Below are positions 3,034 to 55,186 of a stretch of DNA of 64,000 bases, one piece after another; position 1 is the stretch's first letter, and each line of letters begins with the position of its first letter. This DNA comes from an uncultured Prevotellaceae bacterium. GTDB lineage: Bacteria; Bacteroidota; Bacteroidia; Bacteroidales; Bacteroidaceae. The stretch is from assembly GCA_900318685.1 (NCBI GenBank), contig ONLL01000014.1, positions 1 to 64,000 on the forward strand. The letters are read 5' to 3'. The position numbers and the translations under genes were made by a program. The notes under the pieces are model-generated. The model worked only from the letters and a program-made list of their open reading frames with translations, was not told the DNA's origin and made no database searches.

Positions 3034-5388
3034 TTAGTAAGTGTTCACGGGAATGAGGTAGGCTTGTCGCTCGCCTCCTTGCCATATCATCCACTGGTCG
3101 GCGATGATGTGATGGTCGAGGGCAGTGATGCTGAGCCTGTGACGGCCTTTGGTGAGGCGTATGGGTGTCTTGTTGAGTGCCTGTCCGCGCAGCACGCTCT
3201 GCTTCCAGGTCTCTGAGCGGTAGGGCGTCTTCAGCGAGATGACGGTGGCGGGCTGGTCGTCGATCTGCACGGCATAGCGCAGGTCACCGCGGTCGCTGGG
3301 CTGCGTGGGTATCATGGCGGTGTAGAGCGTGGCGTCGCCCTCCTGCGGGCTGTCGAAGTCGTACGTCAGCGTGGTGCCCTTGGGCAGGGCTACGGCCTGC
3401 ATGGAGTGGCCGAGCATCGGGATGACCTGGGGGGACTGCTGTGATACGGCAGCAGACGGGGCGGCAGCGTAGTCGCAGGCATTGCGGGCGATGGCACGGC
3501 CTACGGAGGGATGCTGCGGGAACGAGGTGTGCACCTTGCCGAAGACGGGCAGGTCGCGCGGTGCGGCTGACATGAGGCGCTGCCACTTGCCGTTGTTCAT
3601 CGTGTTGTAGTGCTCCGTCAGCTGCTGTATCTCCTCGTAGGCTTTCTTGCTTTCTGGTTCGTTGGAGAGCATCTTGCGGGTCATGGCGGCAGCGGCATGG
3701 ACGGGATACAGCACATGGGCGAAGTAGGCATCCTGACGGGCGTCCATCACCAGGGGGCGCCAGGTGTCGACGATGGCTTCGAGGTGAGCGAAGGCCTCCA
3801 TGCGCTGGTAGCCCTCGGTCAGCGAGAACTCGGTGCTCTCAGGCACTGACTTGCCGCCGGGGTATTTCTGTCTGTCGAGCTCCACCTGTGTCCATCCCAT
3901 GAACTCGGGACGGCGGATGGCGTTGAGGTGACAGAGCTCGCGCATGGCGGGGAAGATGGCGCGTCCCACCTGGGCGCCAAACTGCGTCATATACCATCGT
4001 TCCATGTGCTCTTCAAGAGAGAGAGGACCTTGTGTGGTAGCCACCCATCGTCTCCCTTTTAATGACGGGTCGGTGGAAATGCTGTTGATGTCCCATGCCA
4101 GGTCCAGGAACAGCTCCAGCTGGTAGGCGGCCACTTTCGGGTCGTGGACATTGGCTATCCACAGGCGTCGGCAGTTGTGATCGTAGGCGGCACGCATCTC
4201 GTTGTAGATGAGTCCCGGCTGTGTGGTGCTGAGCCAGAGGTAGTCGTGCGGACGTCCCCAGTAGGAGAGGTGATAGTAGATGCCGCCTCCGCCGCTGCGC
4301 TGCTGCTGCAGGCTGTCGGGCAGGCGCGTGAGGTAGCCGTAGTTGTCGTCGCACCACATCAGCGTGACGTCGTCGGGCACGCGCAGTCCGCTCTCGTAGA
4401 TCTCGAGCACCTCCTTGTAGGGTATGAACACCTGCGGCACGTGCTCCACATCCTTATTATAATAGCGACGGATGAGCTGACGCTGGTCGTCGATGACCTG
4501 CTGCAGCCCGTTGAGCTTCTCCTCGGGAGTCTTCACTCCCTCCATCGAACCGTCGTGTATGCCTCGCATGCCCAGGGTGAAGAGAGCCTCCGAGCCTTTC
4601 ATCTGCTGCAGGCGCTCCTGCCAGTACTGCTGCACCTGCTGGCGGTTGGTGATGTAGTTATACGCACCACGTGATTTGTGATCCCACTCGGCGACGTTGT
4701 TGCGCAGCAGGGGCTCGCAGTGGCTGGTGCCGACGAGGATGGCGAAGGAGTCGGCCATCTCCTTGTTGCCGGGAACGGTGAAGAAACCGGGCGACACATT
4801 GTGCATGGCCGGCCAGATGGCGTTGGCTCGCAGGCGCAGCAGAAGCTGGAAGAGCCGCTTGTAGGTCTGCGGGCCCATGTTGTCCCCAGACCAGCGGCGT
4901 ATGCTCCAGTCCTCGTCATTGATGAAGATGCCGCGATACTGCACCGACGGTGTATGCTCGAGTCGGAACGTGTCGGGTAGTGACAGAGGGGTGAAACGGC
5001 TGTGTGGACGCACGTCGCCCCACCATACCCACGGCGACACCCCGGCCATGCGGCTCAGTTCGAGGATGCCGTAGGCGGTGCCGCGGGCGTTATGGCCCTC
5101 GACCACCACCTGGCTGTTCTGCACACGGATGCAGAAGCCGTCGTCGCTGCCCTTGCCCTGCACGATGCGGATGGGGGCATCCTTGGCGGGTACGGCCTTG
5201 TGTCTAGTCACCAGCTCCATGTCGTCGGCGAACATCTGCAAGGCCTGCTCCACGACGGGAGCCACCTTGCCCTGCACCTGGTAGGTCACAGGATGCTCGC
5301 CGTCGTACCATACTACGTTGCCGGCCATTGCAGTGGATGATGACAGCATCAGGGCCAGCCATACAAATAGGCGAACAGCTTTTTTCAT
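3034..5388 (-). CDS. Glycoside hydrolase family 115 (alpha-glucuronidase-type), exported
   Basis: This is a 784-aa protein with a clear signal peptide (MKKAVRLFVWLALMLSSSTAMA). It shows the GH115 layout: an N-terminal GH20-like domain, then the YRGIFINDEDWS segment, a (beta/alpha)8 catalytic region with LRANAIWPAMHN and MWCDDNYGY, a helical domain, and a C-terminal beta domain. At 784 aa it is somewhat short for the family. GH115 enzymes remove (4-O-methyl)glucuronic acid from xylan or arabinogalactan. Its place between rhaB and rhaA, 22 bases after rhaB, suggests a substrate in which glucuronic acid is linked to rhamnose, such as capped arabinogalactan or gum chains. That substrate is inferred. 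Confidence 0.88.
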   Translation of the reverse strand: MKKAVRLFVWLALMLSSSTAMAGNVVWYDGEHPVTYQVQGKVAPVVEQALQMFADDMELVTRHKAVPAKDAPIRIVQGKGSDDGFCIRVQNSQVVVEGHNARGTAYGILELSRMAGVSPWVWWGDVRPHSRFTPLSLPDTFRLEHTPSVQYRGIFINDEDWSIRRWSGDNMGPQTYKRLFQLLLRLRANAIWPAMHNVSPGFFTVPGNKEMADSFAILVGTSHCEPLLRNNVAEWDHKSRGAYNYITNRQQVQQYWQERLQQMKGSEALFTLGMRGIHDGSMEGVKTPEEKLNGLQQVIDDQRQLIRRYYNKDVEHVPQVFIPYKEVLEIYESGLRVPDDVTLMWCDDNYGYLTRLPDSLQQQRSGGGGIYYHLSYWGRPHDYLWLSTTQPGLIYNEMRAAYDHNCRRLWIANVHDPKVAAYQLELFLDLAWDINSISTDPSLKGRRWVATTQGPLSLEEHMERWYMTQFGAQVGRAIFPAMRELCHLNAIRRPEFMGWTQVELDRQKYPGGKSVPESTEFSLTEGYQRMEAFAHLEAIVDTWRPLVMDARQDAYFAHVLYPVHAAAAMTRKMLSNEPESKKAYEEIQQLTEHYNTMNNGKWQRLMSAAPRDLPVFGKVHTSFPQHPSVGRAIARNACDYAAAPSAAVSQQSPQVIPMLGHSMQAVALPKGTTLTYDFDSPQEGDATLYTAMIPTQPSDRGDLRYAVQIDDQPATVISLKTPYRSETWKQSVLRGQALNKTPIRLTKGRHRLSITALDHHIIADQWMIWQGGERQAYLIPVNTY

Positions 5389-5410
5389 CGATGACGGTAT
5401 TGCCAGTTAA

Positions 5411-6895
5411 TTATTTCTTATTGACGATGCCAAGATACTTGTCGTATGCGGCATCCCACACGGCCTTGTCCTGCGGCTCGTACTTCACCATCTCGATGCT
5501 GTTGGCGATGATGGCACGCATCTGCCAGATGTCGTTCACCAGACGGGCTGCCTTGGCCTGCATCATGATGTTGCCGATGGCGGTGCACTCCTGCGGACCG
5601 GCAAGGACGGTGGCACCTGTAGAGTTGGCCGTGAACTGATTGAGGTACTTGTTCAGCGAGCCGCCACCAATGATATGGAGCACGTCGAGACGGAACGGAG
5701 CGAACTCCTGCAGCCAGGTGAATACCTGACGATAGCGCAGGGCCAGCGAGTCGAAGATGCAGCGGCAGATCTCGGCGGGAGTCTCCGGCACGGGCTGATT
5801 GGTCTCGCGGCAGTACTTCTGGATGGCTGCTATCATGCTCGAGGGGGCAGCAAAGGCAGCGTCGTCGGGGTTGATGAGCGAGCGGAAGGGCTCGACGGTC
5901 ATGGCCTGTCCCTGCAGTTCGGGATGGCTGAGCTGGCGCACCTCATCGGGCCATTCCAGTCGGCAGCGTTCATAGAGCCACATGCCGCATATATTCTTCA
6001 GGAAGCGGGTGGTGCCCTCGATGCCTCCCTCGTTGGTGAAGTTGCGCTCGTAGCTCAGGTCGCTGATGATGGCATCCTTCGTCTCGATGCCCATCAGGCT
6101 CCATGTGCCGCTGCTGAGGTAGGCAAACTTCTCGTCGCTGGCAGGTACGGCAGCTACGGCCGAGCCGGTGTCGTGGCCTGCCACAGCAATCACGGGCACG
6201 GGTCCCAGTCCTGTCAGGCGCTGCACCTCGTCGGTGAGGACGCCGATGACGGTGCCGGGATTGACCATCTTGCCGAACTTGCTCCTGGTGAGTCCGAGTG
6301 AGCAGAGCAGGCGCTCGTCGAGCTGCTTAGTGCGGGGATCGAGCAGCTGCGAGGTCGATGCGATGGTGTATTCGCACACCTCGTTGCCCGTGAGCATCCA
6401 GCTGAGTGCATCGGGCACGAACAGGATCTTCTGTGCATGACGCAGGGCTTCGTTGCCCTCGCGCTTCATGGCATAGAGCTGGAAGATCGAGTTGAAGTTC
6501 ATGAACTGTATGCCCGTCACGTCGTAGACCTCTTTCTTGGAGATGACATGCTTCAGGTAGTCGTCCATAGCATCGAAGGTGATGGGGTCGCGATAGGCGC
6601 GCGGGTTTCTCAGGATGGCACCGTCGGCACCTATGCATACGAAGTCAACGCCCCAGGTGTCGATGCCTATCGACGTGATCTCCAGTCCGCGTCGGGCCAC
6701 CTCCTTCAGTCCTCTGATGATTTCAAAGTAGAGGGCATAGATGTCCCAATAGTAGTGTCCGCCCTGTTCGATAAGGTTGTTGGGGAATCGTGTCAGCTCC
6801 CCCAGGTCAAACTTTCCGTCGGTGATGTTTCCAATGATGGTGCGGCCGCTGGTAGCTCCCAGGTCGACTGCGAAGAAATACTTTTTCTGCTCCAT
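5411..6895 (-). CDS. rhaB: Rhamnulokinase
   Basis: The FGGY-type sugar kinase of 494 aa phosphorylates L-rhamnulose. It has the N-terminal VDLGATSGRTIIG phosphate loop, IDTWGVDFVCI, an internal VAGHDTGSAVAA and the C-terminal GGGSLNKYLNQ segment. An open frame extends upstream to 7003, but the promoter -7 box at 6969-6976 lies inside that extension, so the ATG at 6895 (MEQKKYFFAVDLGATSG) is the right start. A purine-rich AAAGAAACC precedes it. It is the first gene of the operon. No AraC-type rhamnose regulator is seen nearby. Confidence 0.95.
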   Translation of the reverse strand: MEQKKYFFAVDLGATSGRTIIGNITDGKFDLGELTRFPNNLIEQGGHYYWDIYALYFEIIRGLKEVARRGLEITSIGIDTWGVDFVCIGADGAILRNPRAYRDPITFDAMDDYLKHVISKKEVYDVTGIQFMNFNSIFQLYAMKREGNEALRHAQKILFVPDALSWMLTGNEVCEYTIASTSQLLDPRTKQLDERLLCSLGLTRSKFGKMVNPGTVIGVLTDEVQRLTGLGPVPVIAVAGHDTGSAVAAVPASDEKFAYLSSGTWSLMGIETKDAIISDLSYERNFTNEGGIEGTTRFLKNICGMWLYERCRLEWPDEVRQLSHPELQGQAMTVEPFRSLINPDDAAFAAPSSMIAAIQKYCRETNQPVPETPAEICRCIFDSLALRYRQVFTWLQEFAPFRLDVLHIIGGGSLNKYLNQFTANSTGATVLAGPQECTAIGNIMMQAKAARLVNDIWQMRAIIANSIEMVKYEPQDKAVWDAAYDKYLGIVNKK

Positions 6896-19904: not shown

Positions 19905-19909
19905 ACATA

Positions 19910-19945
19910 GGAGCAATGCCGAAAATCCTGTAAAGAGTAGGCGCA
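19910..19945 (+). repeat. Duplicated leader motif, copy 1
   Basis: This block contains GCCGAAAATCCTGTAAAGAG and lies just before the first small lipoprotein gene. It is repeated with almost no change at 20270-20305. Confidence 0.85.
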
Positions 19946-20258: not shown

Positions 20259-20269
20259 TGACTGACCAA

Positions 20270-20305
20270 GGAGCAAAGCCGAAAATCCTGTAAAGAGTAG
20301 GCACA
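20270..20305 (+). repeat. Duplicated leader motif, copy 2
   Basis: This copy lies 360 bases after copy 1, in the gap before the second lipoprotein gene. It differs by about one base over the 34-base core, although the flanking paralogous genes have diverged strongly. Confidence 0.85.
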
Positions 20306-21268: not shown

Positions 21269-21367
21269 CTCATGGGATAAATACAGGCATTCTGAGAGAT
21301 TTCAAGCGTTTTTGATACCCTCAGAATGCCTGTTAAATGTCAATAGTCAATAGTCAATAGTAAGCAG
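21269..21367 (+). repeat. Left inverted repeat of the 2.07-kb module
   Basis: It starts CTCATGGGATAAATACAGGC, contains a hairpin with a perfect 14-bp stem (ACAGGCATTCTGAG), and ends with three GTCAATA heptamers (21339-21359). The hairpin may terminate transcription of the lipoprotein operon. Confidence 0.92.
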
Positions 21368-21372
21368 TGGGC

Positions 21373-21489
21373 TCACATCGGGCCCAGGCCCATGCAGCTC
21401 GTGGTGGTGAGCGCGGTGATGGCAGCCGTGATCATGGCCGACACGATCTGCCAGATCCTCATCCATGCCTCCCTGGATAGCTTCTTCAT
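21373..21489 (-). CDS. Smalltalk-type small protein
   Basis: A 38-aa reading frame begins MKKLSREAWMRIWQIVSAM and continues through a Thr/Ala-rich hydrophobic stretch to TTTSCMGLGPM. It matches my knowledge of the Bacteroidota smalltalk proteins: about 30-40 aa, MKK start, one hydrophobic segment and a TTTSC end, usually encoded beside HU-like and amidase genes. Function is unknown. A strong AGGAGG (21499-21504, minus strand) precedes the ATG, which is rare in this phylum and supports translation. It lies downstream of the HU-like gene. The amidase often found in such loci is absent. Confidence 0.8.
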   Translation of the reverse strand: MKKLSREAWMRIWQIVSAMITAAITALTTTSCMGLGPM

Positions 21490-21513
21490 CCTTTAAGTCC
21501 TCCTTTCATTTAT

Positions 21514-21673
21514 GAATTTAGAATTTAGAATTTAGATTTTAGAAGTATCGCCTTCGGCGAGTAGGATTTAAGATGTAAGAATTTTGATTTTAGAAGCATC
21601 GCCTTCTCTGAACTCCTACTTCATACTCGCCCAAAGGGCGACACATCTAAACTCTAAATTCTTAACTCTTAAT
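21514..21673. repeat. Two heptamer tracts with hairpins between smalltalk and HU genes
   Basis: Bases 21514-21541 are GAATTTA-type heptamers and 21646-21673 are TCTAAAC/TCTTAAC-type. Between them lie two copies of an AGAAGYATCGCCTTC block and a GCCCAAAGGGC hairpin. Confidence 0.8.
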
Positions 21674-21677
21674 TCCC

Positions 21678-22262
21678 TTAGGGTCTCGGCTCGTCGTCGC
21701 CACTACCACTGCCGTCTCCGGGATTGGCCTGGGCATAGGCGAAGTCCTGGACAGGGGTGAAGGTTCGGTTGCGGCGCACCACCTTCTCCACGCCGTCGAC
21801 GGTCTCCTTGACAGCGGTCGACTCCACCACGCTGTCGAGACGCAGGGCGCACTTCTTCTTCAGCTCCTTGAAGGTGATGTCGCGCAGATCCTCACCCTCG
21901 GGATAGAAGCGGATGTGGATGCCCTCTACCAGGCCGGCAGCACCCATGGCCTGAGCGTCCTCCAGGGTGGCAGCACCTCCGGGCACGTTCTGCACGGTGG
22001 GGCGGAAGGTGCCCAGGCCGTCGAGCTTCACGGGCACTCCCTGCGACAGCAGCTCGATCATGCACTGTGCGAGCTGTCCCAGCACGAGGCGCAGGGTGTT
22101 CTCGTCGACCAGCGATGCATGGCCGCTGATGTGCTTTGCCAGACCGTAGGTCGAGAGGGTCTGACGGTTGGCCGCCTCGGCGAAATAGTGACCGAAGGTC
22201 TTGCTGAGGGCGTTCTTGTTCTGGCGGATGTTAATAGCCATCACGATTTGATTACTTGGCAT
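21678..22262 (-). CDS. HU/IHF-like DNA-binding protein with acidic tail
   Basis: The 194-aa protein has an IHF-like fold region: helices (KNALSKTFGHYFAEAANRQTLSTYGLAKHISGH), then VKLDGLGTFRPTV, the typical HU strand, and a later IHIRFYPEGEDLRDITF segment. The C-terminus is a disordered Gly/Ser/Asp tail ending GDDEPRP. Family members bind DNA and are abundant beside smalltalk genes in Bacteroidota. The open frame runs up to 22382, but AAAGGAGA just before ATG 22262 favours MPSNQIVMAINIR as the start. A -7 box at 22449-22456 lies about 190 bases upstream. It resembles the truncated protein at the window start. Confidence 0.82.
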   Translation of the reverse strand: MPSNQIVMAINIRQNKNALSKTFGHYFAEAANRQTLSTYGLAKHISGHASLVDENTLRLVLGQLAQCMIELLSQGVPVKLDGLGTFRPTVQNVPGGAATLEDAQAMGAAGLVEGIHIRFYPEGEDLRDITFKELKKKCALRLDSVVESTAVKETVDGVEKVVRRNRTFTPVQDFAYAQANPGDGSGSGDDEPRP

Positions 22263-22781
22263 TTCTCTTGTTCTCCTTTCTTTGTTAATTAATGTTAAGC
22301 ATAGTTCCTGTTTACTCTGAGCGAAAGTTCTAGTTACTCGGCATGTTAGTCGCACTTTCTCGGTAGGTTTTGGAGTGGCCATCTCCGTGCCTTGTGAGCA
22401 TCAGGATTCATTTTCTGTGCAATCATCGCTGCAACTTGTTTGCGTCGGCAAAGGTACTGCCTTTTCTGAATATCGACCCTGATTTTGCAAGTTAAAAAAG
22501 CTTAAGATTTTTGCATTCTCGCTCACATAAGAGAGGGCCTGCCCGTGCTTCGACGTGCAGCAATGGCTGAGAGGAGAAAATTATTTGACATCATTTATTG
22601 ACTATTGACTATTGACTATTGACATTTAAGGTGGCATACTGACGTTATATTAATATATATTATATATAATATATATTAATATAAAAGTTGTCATAGGTCG
22701 TTGAAGAGAAAAATGCATCAAAAATGGCGGTTAAATGTCAATAGTAAATAGTCAATAGTAAGGAAGAAAGGAACAAGCAAA
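22263..22781. other. Central intergenic region of the module
   Basis: This 519-base gap separates the outward-facing genes. It holds a minus-strand TACCTTTG at 22449-22456, a long HU leader, heptamer tracts at 22598-22625 (TTGACTA) and 22737-22764 (GTCAATA), and between them the 40-bp palindrome. No TAnnTTTG box is seen for the rightward gene. Confidence 0.7.
22645..22684. repeat. Perfect 40-bp AT palindrome
   Basis: The sequence is only A and T and equals its own reverse complement over all 40 bases (20-base arms). TGAC and GTCA flank it. It has no T-tailed terminator form and could be a protein-binding or cruciform site. Confidence 0.92.
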
Positions 22782-23243
22782 ATGGAAGTTAACGAACAGA
22801 AAACCAAGACGTTGAAGGGCTCGATGAAGTTCTTCAAGGACGACCGCCTGGAGTTCACGCCCTACGGGCAGGGAGAGCCTATGTATGCCGAGATCAGGAA
22901 GGCCGGCGATGGCTCGCTCATGAGGACTACAGGCGAGAAGCGGCAAAGTCTGGTGGCATGGCTGAAGGTGGATGCCAACGCTGCCGACCCCGCCGCCGAC
23001 CTGCGCGACCAGCTCGAAAAAGTGCTGAAAGGCCTGCCGGAATCCCAGCGGAAGCCTCGTCTGAGGGGCCGTTTCCTGAAGAATTCGGACGAGCTGAAAG
23101 TGCGTCTAGATGAGCGCGACGGCACGATAAGCGTGCTGATGACGCTGGATGTGAGAAGTAAAAATTATGTACAAAGATTTAATACGGTGCACAGCCGTGC
23201 AAAGGACAACAGGATGAATGTGGCTTTCAAGTCAGTCAGCTGA
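22782..23243 (+). CDS. Unknown 153-aa protein of the inverted-repeat module
   Basis: The 153-aa protein is charged and has no signal peptide or membrane segment. It begins MEVNEQKTKTLKGSMKFFKD and contains LEFTPYGQGEP and an AADPAADLRDQLEKVLKGLP stretch. I do not recognise a characterised family; it has the look of small Bacteroidota proteins found near HU-like genes, possibly nucleic-acid binding given its basic C-terminus. AAGAAAGGAAC precedes the ATG. Its stop codon (23241-23243) abuts the right inverted repeat exactly, mirroring the leftward side of the module. Confidence 0.65.
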   Translation: MEVNEQKTKTLKGSMKFFKDDRLEFTPYGQGEPMYAEIRKAGDGSLMRTTGEKRQSLVAWLKVDANAADPAADLRDQLEKVLKGLPESQRKPRLRGRFLKNSDELKVRLDERDGTISVLMTLDVRSKNYVQRFNTVHSRAKDNRMNVAFKSVS

Positions 23244-23337
23244 CTGCTTACTATATTGACTATTGACATTTAACTGGCATTCTGAGGGTATCAAAAACGC
23301 TTGAAATCTCTCAGAATGCCTGTATTTATCCCATGAG
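23244..23337 (-). repeat. Right inverted repeat of the 2.07-kb module
   Basis: This is the reverse complement of 21269-21367 with one mismatch after 62 identical bases and a shorter heptamer tract. It ends ATCCCATGAG and carries the same hairpin. Confidence 0.92.
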
Positions 23338-23958: not shown

Positions 23959-23971
23959 CAGCGGCAATTAA

Positions 23972-24027
23972 GTGAAGAGTGAAGAATGAAGAGTGAAGAA
24001 TGTAGAGTGAAGAATGAAGAGTGAAGA
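23972..24027 (+). repeat. Heptamer array in the metY leader
   Basis: Eight tandem heptamers of the form RTGAAGA (one ATGTAGA) lie between the metY promoter and its ATG. The array is also readable as four 14-mers. Confidence 0.95.
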
Positions 24028-24065
24028 ATGAAAACATTATTAATTAATAAATAAAGGACAAGATT

Positions 24066-32007: not shown

Positions 32008-32052
32008 TTTTCACTTTTCACTTTCCACTTTTCACTTTTTTTCGTACCTTTG
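32008..32052 (+). promoter_or_regulatory. efp promoter with heptamer array upstream of the -7 box
   Basis: TACCTTTG is at 32045-32052. The four heptamers TTTTCAC/TTTCCAC at 32008-32035 occupy the place of the upstream box, and no TTTG is seen 19-20 bases away. A change in repeat number would alter the sequence at -33. Confidence 0.7.
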
Positions 32053-32674: not shown

Positions 32675-33850
32675 ATGCGCTATAGCATCGTCGTTCCAGT
32701 CTTCAACCGTCCTGACGAAGTCCGCGAGCTGTTGGAGAGCCTCACCTGTCAGTCGCTCAGCGATTTCGAGGTGATCATTGTGGAAGACGGTTCAAAGTCG
32801 ACTTGCAAGGATGTTTGCGACCAGTTCGCAGGCATCCTTGACTTACATTATTATTATAAGGAGAACAGCGGACCGGGACAGAGCCGCAACTACGGAGCCG
32901 AGCGTGCCTCAGGCGAATGGATCATCGTGCTCGACAGCGACGTAGTCCTGCCAAAGAACTATCTGGAGAACGTGGAAGCCGAATTATATCAGAGCGGTAG
33001 CACGCTCGAGCTCGGCTCGCTTGCTACCAAAGGGACGCAAGAACTCTCCACTCTCCACTCTCCACTCTCCACTCTAAACTCTTCACTCTCCACTCCCGCC
33101 GCCTGGGGCGGTCCCGATGCTGCTCATCCCGACTTTACTCCCGTGCAGAAGGCCATCAGTTATTCGATGACCTCGTTTTTCACCACTGGAGGCATTCGCG
33201 GAGGCAAGAAGAAGCTCGACAAGTTCTTTCCGCGCTCGTTCAACATGGGCGTGCTAAGCGAGGTCTACAAAAAGCTGGGTGGATTCTCCAAGATGCGCTT
33301 CGGCGAGGACATCGACTTCAGCTACCGCATCGTAGAGGCAGGCTATCAGACACGACTGCTGTCATCGGCCTGGGTGTGGCACAAGCGGCGCACGGACTTC
33401 CGCAAGTTCTTCCGTCAGGTGTTCAACAGCGGCATCGCTCGCATCAACCTCACCAAGCGCCATCCGGGTACGCTGAAGCTCGTCCATCTGCTGCCCACCG
33501 TCTTCACCCTGGGCGTTATCTTTCTCCTGCTGCTCTTTATGATGGGGGTAGGCCTCTATATCGAAGGCGAATGGCTCGACGCGCACGGACTGCGGCCCAC
33601 CGACAACATGCATCAAGGCGTAGGCTTCGTCTTGTGTGTGCTATCATTACTGCCCCTGCTCATCTACAGCCTCATCATCTTCGTCGACTCCAGCATACGC
33701 AACCGCAGCCTCTGGGTGGGACTGCTCAGCATTCCTGCCGCCTTCACACAGCTCATGGGCTACGGCTTGGGCTTCATCAAGGCCTGGTGGAAGCGCTGTG
33801 TGCTAGGACAGGACGAGTTCCAGGCTTTCGAAAAGAACTTCTACAAATGA
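32675..33850 (+). CDS. Family 2 glycosyltransferase with C-terminal membrane segments
   Basis: The 391-aa protein has a GT-A domain (RYSIVVPVFNRPDEVRELLESL, VIIVEDGS, IIVLDSDVVLP), an acceptor part with FGEDIDFSYRI and WHKRR, then three to four membrane segments. It probably adds a sugar to a lipid-linked or surface glycan. Anomaly: residues about 107-141 (SGSTLELGSLATKGTQELS..., then Ser/Thr/Leu repeats) are encoded by a dispersed repeat (54-bp unit plus seven heptamers) whose core is identical to intergenic 400-453. Homologues I recall run straight from about LE to GGPD. The frame is intact. It overlaps radC by four bases. Confidence 0.9.
   Translation: MRYSIVVPVFNRPDEVRELLESLTCQSLSDFEVIIVEDGSKSTCKDVCDQFAGILDLHYYYKENSGPGQSRNYGAERASGEWIIVLDSDVVLPKNYLENVEAELYQSGSTLELGSLATKGTQELSTLHSPLSTLNSSLSTPAAWGGPDAAHPDFTPVQKAISYSMTSFFTTGGIRGGKKKLDKFFPRSFNMGVLSEVYKKLGGFSKMRFGEDIDFSYRIVEAGYQTRLLSSAWVWHKRRTDFRKFFRQVFNSGIARINLTKRHPGTLKLVHLLPTVFTLGVIFLLLLFMMGVGLYIEGEWLDAHGLRPTDNMHQGVGFVLCVLSLLPLLIYSLIIFVDSSIRNRSLWVGLLSIPAAFTQLMGYGLGFIKAWWKRCVLGQDEFQAFEKNFYK
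32994..33095. repeat. Composite repeat inserted in frame in the GT2 gene
   Basis: Bases 32994-33047 are an exact reverse-complement copy of 400-453. Bases 33047-33095 are seven heptamers (mostly TCCACTC, with TAAACTC and TTCACTC). The order of unit and array matches the copy at 375-453. Confidence 0.95.
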
Positions 33851-35749: not shown

Positions 35750-36070
35750 ATGACGACAGAAGAAAAAGTTAAGATAGAGGAACGCATCGTCGACGTGCTC
35801 AAGACCGTCTACGACCCTGAGATACCTGTCAATGTCTTCGACCTGGGCATGATCTACAAGATCGACCTGAAAGACGACTACACCGTCGACCTCGACATGA
35901 CTTTCACCGCCCCCAACTGTCCTGCCGCCGACTTCATCCTCGAGGACGTCCGCACCAAGGTCGAGAGTGTCGATCAGATCAAGGGCTGTACCGTCAACCT
36001 GGTCTTCGAGCCCGCCTGGGACCAGTCGATGATGACCGAGGAAGCGCGCGTTGAGCTAGGATTCGAGTAA
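35750..36070 (+). CDS. DUF59/MIP18-type iron-sulfur assembly protein
   Basis: The 106-aa protein has IVDVLKTVYDPEIPVNVFDLGMIYKIDL and TFTAPNCPAADFILEDVRTKV, the DUF59 (SufT/PaaD/Cia2-like) signature with its single conserved Cys. Such proteins help mature or transfer Fe-S clusters. No other suf genes are adjacent. It is probably co-transcribed with the OmpA gene and followed by lpxH. Confidence 0.9.
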   Translation: MTTEEKVKIEERIVDVLKTVYDPEIPVNVFDLGMIYKIDLKDDYTVDLDMTFTAPNCPAADFILEDVRTKVESVDQIKGCTVNLVFEPAWDQSMMTEEARVELGFE

Positions 36071-36098
36071 GTGTAGAGTTTAAAGTGTAGAGTGTAGA
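36071..36098 (+). repeat. Heptamer array before lpxH
   Basis: GTGTAGA, GTTTAAA, GTGTAGA, GTGTAGA between the DUF59 stop and the lpxH ATG at 36102; it occupies the ribosome-binding region. Confidence 0.92.
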
Positions 36099-37180: not shown

Positions 37181-37433
37181 CCTCACTAAATCGCTCAAAT
37201 GCCTTTAAACAAAGGGGATTTGACAAGTGAGGTATGTCGATTTAACCTCACTTATACCTCACTCATACCTCACTTCCAACCTCACTTCCGCACAGTCAGT
37301 TCAAACTATTGAGCGAGTGAGGTTACGAGTGAGGTATAAGTGAGGTTCAGGTGAGGTATAAGTGAGGTATCTCAGGCATACCTCACCTCCCGTTTCCCCT
37401 TTATACAAAGGCATTTCAGAAGATTTAGTGAGG
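37181..37433. repeat. Palindromic GTGAGGT cluster with inverted ends
   Basis: The ends CCTCACTAAATC...AAATGCCTTT and AAAGGCATTT...GATTTAGTGAGG are inverted repeats of about 40 bases. Inside, CCTCAC motifs on the left (37246, 37257, 37268, 37280) and GTGAGG motifs on the right (37317, 37329, 37340, 37351, 37362) recur every 11-12 bases. Confidence 0.85.
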
Positions 37434-47429: not shown

Positions 47430-47492
47430 CGAAGGAGTTAGGAGTTTTTTATTGTCAAAAAGGATAAATAATGTTAAATGCAGCGTAATAAG

Positions 47493-47520
47493 TCCTAACA
47501 CCTAACTCCTAACTCCTAAC
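47493..47520 (+). repeat. Heptamer array before rsmI
   Basis: TCCTAAC, ACCTAAC, TCCTAAC, TCCTAAC directly upstream of the rsmI -7 box (TAATTTTG at 47528-47535). Two related units lie at 47433-47446 on the tdk side. Confidence 0.9.
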
Positions 47521-47544
47521 TTTTGCTTAATTTTGTCTCCGAAT

Positions 47545-51182: not shown

Positions 51183-51192
51183 TGTCATTCTT

Positions 51193-51290
51193 TTGAACGG
51201 CTTAAGAGGGCCTCTTGAACGGTTTAAGAGGCCCTTTTGAACGGTTCAAGACCTCCTTTTGAACGGCTTGAGAACTACTCTTGGGCCGTT
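51193..51290 (+). repeat. 22-bp-period array, TTGAACGG type
   Basis: TTGAACGG starts at 51193, 51215, 51237 and 51259, with a degenerate TTGGGCCG at 51281, exactly 22 bases apart. Unit remainders (CTTAAGAGG, TTTAAGAGG, TTCAAGACC, CTTGAGAAC) are related. Confidence 0.93.
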
Positions 51291-55076: not shown

Positions 55077-55186
55077 CTTATCCGCGATGAGCATCTCGTC
55101 CGTCCGTAACGAGCGTGCGCTCCGTCCGTAAAGAGCGTGCGCTCCGTCCGCAACGAGCGATCGGTCCGTCCGCAACGAGTGGGACG
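55077..55186 (-). repeat. 22-bp-period array, GCGGACGGA type (inverted copy)
   Basis: TCCGTCCG(T/C)AA starts at 55099, 55121, 55143 and 55165, exactly 22 bases apart, with a degenerate unit at 55077. Its reverse complement is the TT(G/A)CGGACGGA unit of 36950-37029, and both arrays end in a CGCGGA..AGCGA unit. Confidence 0.92.

Follow-up and report, generated by a model that had tools for sequence, protein, structure and literature searches.

An internally deleted member of a probably mobile family of repeat-flanked gene units in gut Prevotella-like bacteria

The DNA analyzed here is a 64-kb stretch of the forward strand of contig ONLL01000014.1, from an uncultured Prevotellaceae bacterium (hereafter the window). 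It contains at 21269-23337 a compact module with long inverted ends, outward-facing genes and a central palindrome. An earlier note on this DNA had described the ends, the identity of their outermost 62 nucleotides (nt), the palindrome, the heptamer tracts and the gene directions, and all of these are found where it put them (Table 1). The inverted ends pair across 84 nt (21269-21352 with 23254-23337) with one mismatch, and a longer alignment extends over 108 columns at 92% identity. Each end has a hairpin with 14-nt arms, 100% paired on the left and 93% paired on the right, and DNA folding of the right end gave a z-score of -5.3. The perfect A+T palindrome lies between inverted tracts of the unit GTCAATA. 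When a 14-mer of this unit was sought with at most one mismatch, all eight copies in the window fell within the module, and none was found in 100 shuffles.

The open reading frames (ORFs) of the module were compared with Pfam, NCBIfam and PHROGs. The HU-like gene matched the HU-HIG family PF18291 at 44 bits, above the cut-off of 26.2; its true start is probably near 22262, to judge from its homologs in loci L019 and L041, which begin there. The window HU protein has 19 matches in its own genome. The small leftward ORF scored below the NCBI cut-off for smalltalk (NF033879; 24.7 bits), and is called smalltalk-like only because of its position and its similarity to sister loci. The rightward ORF of 153 amino acids (aa) had no match in any of the three collections at the thresholds used. 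The genes are thus much as first described, except that the smalltalk call is sub-threshold, the HU start is probably shifted and the 153-aa ORF is composite. As the earlier note had stated, no transposase or recombinase was recognized among the module ORFs.

Residues 1 to ~135 of the 153-aa ORF align with full-length proteins of a primase-partner family, which we term U153. Its final stretch instead matches the C-terminus of an ORF beside a further copy of the end on contig C57 of the same genome, and DNA identity with C57 runs from ~23184 to the module end. The C57 ORF resembles the ORF that follows the primase gene in L016 (score 82, maximum 51 in 500 shuffles), and the C57 end adjoins the C-terminus in common with the 153-aa ORF as well as a scrap of primase gene. 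On these alignments, the 153-aa ORF is a fusion remnant and C57 is a decayed sister copy. The U153 fusion, the identity with C57 and a short remnant of an amidase gene to the left of the palindrome together indicate that DNA has been deleted internally, both to the left and to the right of the palindrome. The window copy has lost the entire primase-helicase gene and most of the amidase gene, and it retains both ends, all four tracts, the palindrome and the U153-type part of the partner gene. Two other loci of this genome, L017 and L018, likewise have the palindrome and tracts and no primase in the stretch covered.

Table 1. Coordinates of features of the module (positions in the window)
Feature	Position	Strand	Remarks
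Left end: terminal motif CTCATGGGATAAATACAGG, hairpin, heptamer tract	21269..21367	+	same boundary at C57:25931
Left-end hairpin, 14-nt arms, 23 nt between	21283..21333	.	
Left-end tract, unit GTCAATA	21333..21361	-	29 nt, 100% inverted match to central left tract
Smalltalk-like ORF, 38 aa	21373..21489	-	profile 18.9 bits; matches in L043-L047 50-53% over 27-36 residues
Second, different inverted heptamer pair GAATTTA / TCTAAAC, between smalltalk-like and HU genes	21508..21676	.	
HU-HIG family DNA-binding protein	21678..22382	-	PF18291
Remnant of amidase gene 3' end	22534..22571	+	35/38 nt identical to L016
Central left tract, unit TATTGAC, ends ATTTAA	22596..22629	+	
Perfect A+T palindrome, 40 bp	22645..22684	.	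proposed origin core
Central right tract, inverted	22730..22760	-	
153-aa ORF	22782..23243	+	residues 1 to ~135 U153; remainder C-terminus of another ORF
Approximate primase-helicase deletion junction	23184	.	DNA identity with C57 remnant starts
Right end: tract, hairpin, terminal motif	23243..23337	-	
Right-end tract	23254..23273	+	

Other inverted or heptamer inserts occupy, in L019 (2800-2945) and L041 (5103-5318), the same spot as the GAATTTA / TCTAAAC pair of the window.

The genome of the window has six U153 paralogs and the C57 remnant beyond the window itself, and a profile search (E≤1e-6) found U153 relatives in 77 of 398 genomes of the genus, its own included. Sixty places in other genomes were fetched, chosen by their U153 partner gene. 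All but one (L110) have a primase gene, mostly immediately beside U153, and some also have a lytic enzyme, antirepressor, HU, smalltalk or DUF4248 gene. Every one of the 48 primases that were aligned matches PF08800 (BT4734-like_N), and 10 match DUF3987. Since 59 of the 60 fetched relatives bear a primase, the window copy is to be regarded as the derived form; the comparison shows that it belongs, with internal deletions, to a family of chromosomal elements found at dispersed places. The earlier note had proposed a unit built around a DNA-bending protein. HU-HIG and smalltalk genes are indeed frequent members, but the common core among these relatives, which were selected by U153, is the primase-helicase with its U153 partner.

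The plan of the family can be read from L016-L019, which follow one arrangement. In L019, the most complete of them, smalltalk and HU genes point leftward and further genes, including an amidase, point rightward; a tract, an A+T palindrome, an inverted tract and U153 follow. Downstream of U153 come a protein of 800 residues and a small ORF, then a tract with a hairpin after it. L017 and L018 are shorter copies, and for L016 no left end is visible in the stretch covered. A complete copy would thus read, from the left, end, tract, smalltalk and HU, other genes, tract, A+T palindrome and inverted tract, continuing with the U153 partner, a primase/MCM-like helicase, in some copies a lytic enzyme or small ORF, a tract and the other end. 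Hairpins at the element ends are seen in the own-genome copies. Examples of copies that bear a primase are C38, which is complete, and C44:57466, whose left end was not located. In L104, an element with both end tracts, a gene of the PDDEXK_2 nuclease-family transposases lies at 4361-5416; it looks like cargo.

The tract unit varies from element to element, except among some close relatives. The 84 sequences surveyed (the window, 21 own-genome stretches, two named contigs and the 60 relatives) contained 25 A+T palindromes, and the flanks of 21 of these had at least three common 9-mers in inverted order, compared with 9 of 600 between-element pairs. For the 49 primase loci with at least 150 nt beyond the primase, the right-end tract matched the direct-plus-inverted central pair of its own locus in 12 cases; cross pairs matched in 19 of 2352, several of these being loci that share a unit. 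Among 27 tracts of seven hand-picked elements, mean similarity was 0.84 within and 0.011 between elements and none of 10000 label permutations reached the observed value, a comparison that describes the pattern rather than testing it because several tracts were located by their unit. L017 and L018 are 85.5% identical over 1155 columns, but their units are swapped in register (AGTATTCG versus AATCATCG). The same was seen between L019 and L056 (AGTACGCG versus AGTTAACA, in register), and the units of L098 and L110 also differ. As judged from the aligned copies, each element has one private unit of 7-8 bp, which is shown to change in concert between closely related elements.

Searching with the end hairpin, without use of the unit, brought up two left ends, both on other contigs. 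The one at C4:6709 has the L018 unit; the one at C7:12512 has that of L017 and agrees with the L017 right end at 36 of 36 nt. Each leads into sequence resembling the smalltalk region of L019. Thus, in this hairpin class, the two left ends carry the units of its two right ends, one each. Across 1.0 Mb of fetched sequence, which is enriched for elements, there were 68 arrays of period 7 and 39 of period 8, and at most six of any other period from 5 to 14. In the window, 7-bp-unit tandem arrays also occur outside the module, at 374-405, 23971-24032, 32008-32039, 33043-33095, 36070-36098 and 47489-47521.

A 102-nt end query found three full copies in the genome (both module ends and C57:25931-26027), together with the two central tracts. 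Among 200 genomes of the genus, including this one, only one other was positive, over 29 nt. With one mismatch allowed, the genome has six occurrences of the end motif. Three are accounted for by the two module ends and C57; two of the remaining three follow terminator-like hairpins, and all three are free of element genes within 1.5 kb. A related class of hairpin was found at six places, in four cases at an element end. L197 (C15:64922), L189 (C20:33023) and L192 (C46:24172) are solo hairpin ends or terminators lacking element genes, and the terminal motif of the element is present at L189 and L192. L197 has ~105 bp of outer flank in common with the occupied C4 site and may be an excision scar or a target; it was not counted as an empty site, since its other flank does not match.

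The homologous ends stop at the same terminal motif in several unrelated places and the copies are dispersed, and we consider these repeat-flanked units to be probably mobile. We looked for empty sites, as the earlier note had proposed, and found no clean one: the neighbors of the window copy and of L019 are not adjacent in relatives. At the Lrp loci of 29 relatives (taken from 47 positive relatives; L159 offers 169 nt only on the relevant side) there was no lipoprotein, HU or 153-aa gene in the stretch of up to 1.5 kb on either side, a result that speaks for mobility. The lipoprotein neighbor of the window copy is never present there, so that an empty site would be unrecognizable. For L019, the right-hand neighbor is absent from all 10 loci, its own included, in the stretch covered. 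The description of the module as a non-autonomous unit fits, both deletions being visible and longer relatives of the same plan occurring in this and other genomes.

One strain pair could be compared. L055, the counterpart of L019 in a second genome, agrees with it in site and orientation and is 98.4% identical over 3368 columns; at the left end, identity is 92.6% over 366 columns and the left tract is two units longer. The genome of L055 has no match to the lipoprotein flank of the window copy; it matches the HU gene, the region upstream of HU and part of U153, with a weak Lrp-like match and short matches besides. At the start of a contig of this second genome, the 187 nt of L202 match window positions 22339-22526, upstream of HU, at 94%; lying at the contig edge, L202 is perhaps a close copy of the window element.

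With moderate confidence, we interpret the module as a deletion derivative of repeat-flanked primase-helicase elements with private tracts, with the palindrome as origin and movable in trans. In this scheme the palindrome and its inverted tracts would serve as a replication origin, which the primase-helicase would open with the help of U153 and HU-HIG. The tract repeated at either end would set the boundaries of the segment that is replicated or moved, and the end tracts could pair with each other or with the center. Having lost the primase-helicase and the amidase and kept every cis site, the window copy would be non-autonomous and could be moved only in trans, for example by the primase-bearing copies C38 or C44:57466. 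The private unit would keep co-resident copies from cross-reacting. A bolder extension, which we put forward tentatively and think doubtful, is that these elements form an integrase-free mobile class, widespread in Prevotella-like bacteria, with a primase-MCM-like helicase, a palindromic origin and a 7-8-bp 'barcode' rewritten in concert in each copy so that copies stay orthogonal. Such rewriting would need a templated tract-copying step, and we know of no bacterial transposon that has one. To our knowledge there is also no agreed purpose for smalltalk genes or BT4734/DUF3987 primases; the present finding places these and HU together in a single bounded unit whose cis sites are defined, and exactly those sites are kept in the deletion derivatives. 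It raises the questions of how a short repeat comes to be copied to four places that are far apart and inverted, and whether interference between related elements in one cell is thereby avoided.

A number of observations weigh against this interpretation. Among own-genome HU loci, L041, L047 and L049 have a palindrome, but neither a primase match nor matching tracts at their ends; in 37 of the 49 primase loci a linked set of tracts was not seen in the stretch covered; and no fold could be assigned to U153. No integrase or transposase was recognized in the window, L019 or L107, where several ORFs match no family, and the PDDEXK_2 gene of L104 is the single nuclease-transposase-family gene seen. 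The module has terminal inverted repeats as transposons do, yet there is no direct duplication beside its ends in the window, where the outside bases differ. The assembly is broken in this region: C7, with the L017 unit, shares the 99 nt of its tail with the head of C35, which has the L018 unit, and C4 overlaps neither C35 nor C44. The first 100 nt of C44 also lie within C35, at 545, and a C35 stretch common to both elements and collapsed in assembly fits the C7/C35 overlap; the physical left-right pairing of L017 and L018 is tentative, and a C7-C35 element bearing two different units is conceivable. The earlier note had named two findings that would speak against mobility, ends that are genome-wide terminators and a block fixed in relatives. 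Here the outcome is mixed: terminator-like hairpins bearing the terminal motif do exist without element genes, but the block is not fixed.

Such gene-free hairpins, and the 7-8-bp arrays present outside elements, would suit an ordinary, non-mobile genomic island with purely regulatory repeats. The hairpins would then act as bidirectional terminators and the palindrome as an operator or divergent promoter, and the tracts would be rapidly changing microsatellite-like arrays homogenized by gene conversion. The palindrome is intergenic and upstream of U153, and four promoter-like sites were found where 2.3 were expected (sd 1.4). However, the module has no T-tailed terminator, compared with 2.0 in shuffles, in a scan limited to loops of 3-8 nt, and termination does not need four tracts of one private unit in inverted register. 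Moreover, the palindrome changes in sequence yet keeps its self-complementarity, and elements with homologous ends stand at several unrelated places. We regard this explanation as unlikely. Less probable still is that the module is an invertible, phase-variable segment. Its long, nearly identical inverted ends and the inverted tracts at several scales had suggested this to the earlier note, but no site-specific recombinase was recognized inside, homologous ends are found on dispersed elements, and the related element of the sole strain pair (L019/L055) keeps its orientation and site; we give the idea very little credence.

HU-HIG units could also be modular anti-invader cassettes, as expansions of HU genes in Bacteroidetes have reportedly been proposed to be, with primase, restriction and nuclease genes interchangeable around a palindrome-tract frame. 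In L049 (own genome, C30:155500-166500), HU, smalltalk and the palindrome adjoin a C5 DNA methylase and a restriction-type HNH nuclease; L041 adjoins a YhcG-type nuclease; and in another species L101 has a type IIG enzyme beside palindrome and HU. The comparison covered these three cargo loci only, and the window copy has no such gene. The L101 palindrome is without detected inverted tracts and the common stretch of L049 is minimal, whereas the match of end to central tracts was seen only in primase units or their deletion derivatives. PADLOC gave nothing for HU and U153, and the primase matches PrimPol weakly. A defensive role of this kind seems improbable, though less so than inversion.

Primase-helicase units and their deletion derivatives invite comparison with known systems. 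In iteron-controlled replicons, as here, an A+T-rich region next to a gene of initiator type is flanked by short direct repeats; the present units, however, measure 7-8 bp, stand in inverted orientation on the two sides of a perfect palindrome, recur at the element ends and are private to the individual copy, and the L019 primase has no match in plasmids. Plant transposons of the En/Spm and Ac types have repeated subterminal binding motifs and deletion derivatives. As in these, internal deletions spare the ends and cis motifs and short and long copies coexist; in contrast, no transposase was recognized here, no target duplication is visible and the motif differs from copy to copy. With phage satellites of the SaPI/PICI type the family has in common a primase-helicase replication module and antirepressor-like and lytic genes, but no integrase or packaging gene was recognized among the scanned ORFs of L019 and L107, some of which match no family. 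The L019 primase has no match in phages; the family was found at two loci in viral contigs.

The HU protein and the adjoining smalltalk-like ORF correspond to described families, the latter below its cut-off, and the primases of the family belong with BT4734-like loci, although the window copy lacks this gene. BT4734-like primases of Bacteroidetes are covered in a survey of the archaeo-eukaryotic primase (AEP) family, which also describes DUF3987 as a predicted helicase domain of mobile-element replication proteins (PMC5862659). The portions of that survey cited here treat proteins and give no element boundaries, palindrome or private tracts. Searches of the open-licence literature turned up no paper that describes the tracts, the palindrome or where the elements end. 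The protein families are already known, and the other features may be new.

Other repeats were noted in the window. At 37245-37370, two facing arrays of 11-bp units (ACCTCACTTAT and AGTGAGGTATA), ~30 bp apart, resemble a large repeat-built hairpin, and two arrays of 22-bp units with differing consensus lie at 51190-51273 and 55099-55179. To the left of the module, two DUF805b RNA motifs (19908-19943 and 20268-20303) precede small lipoprotein-like ORFs.
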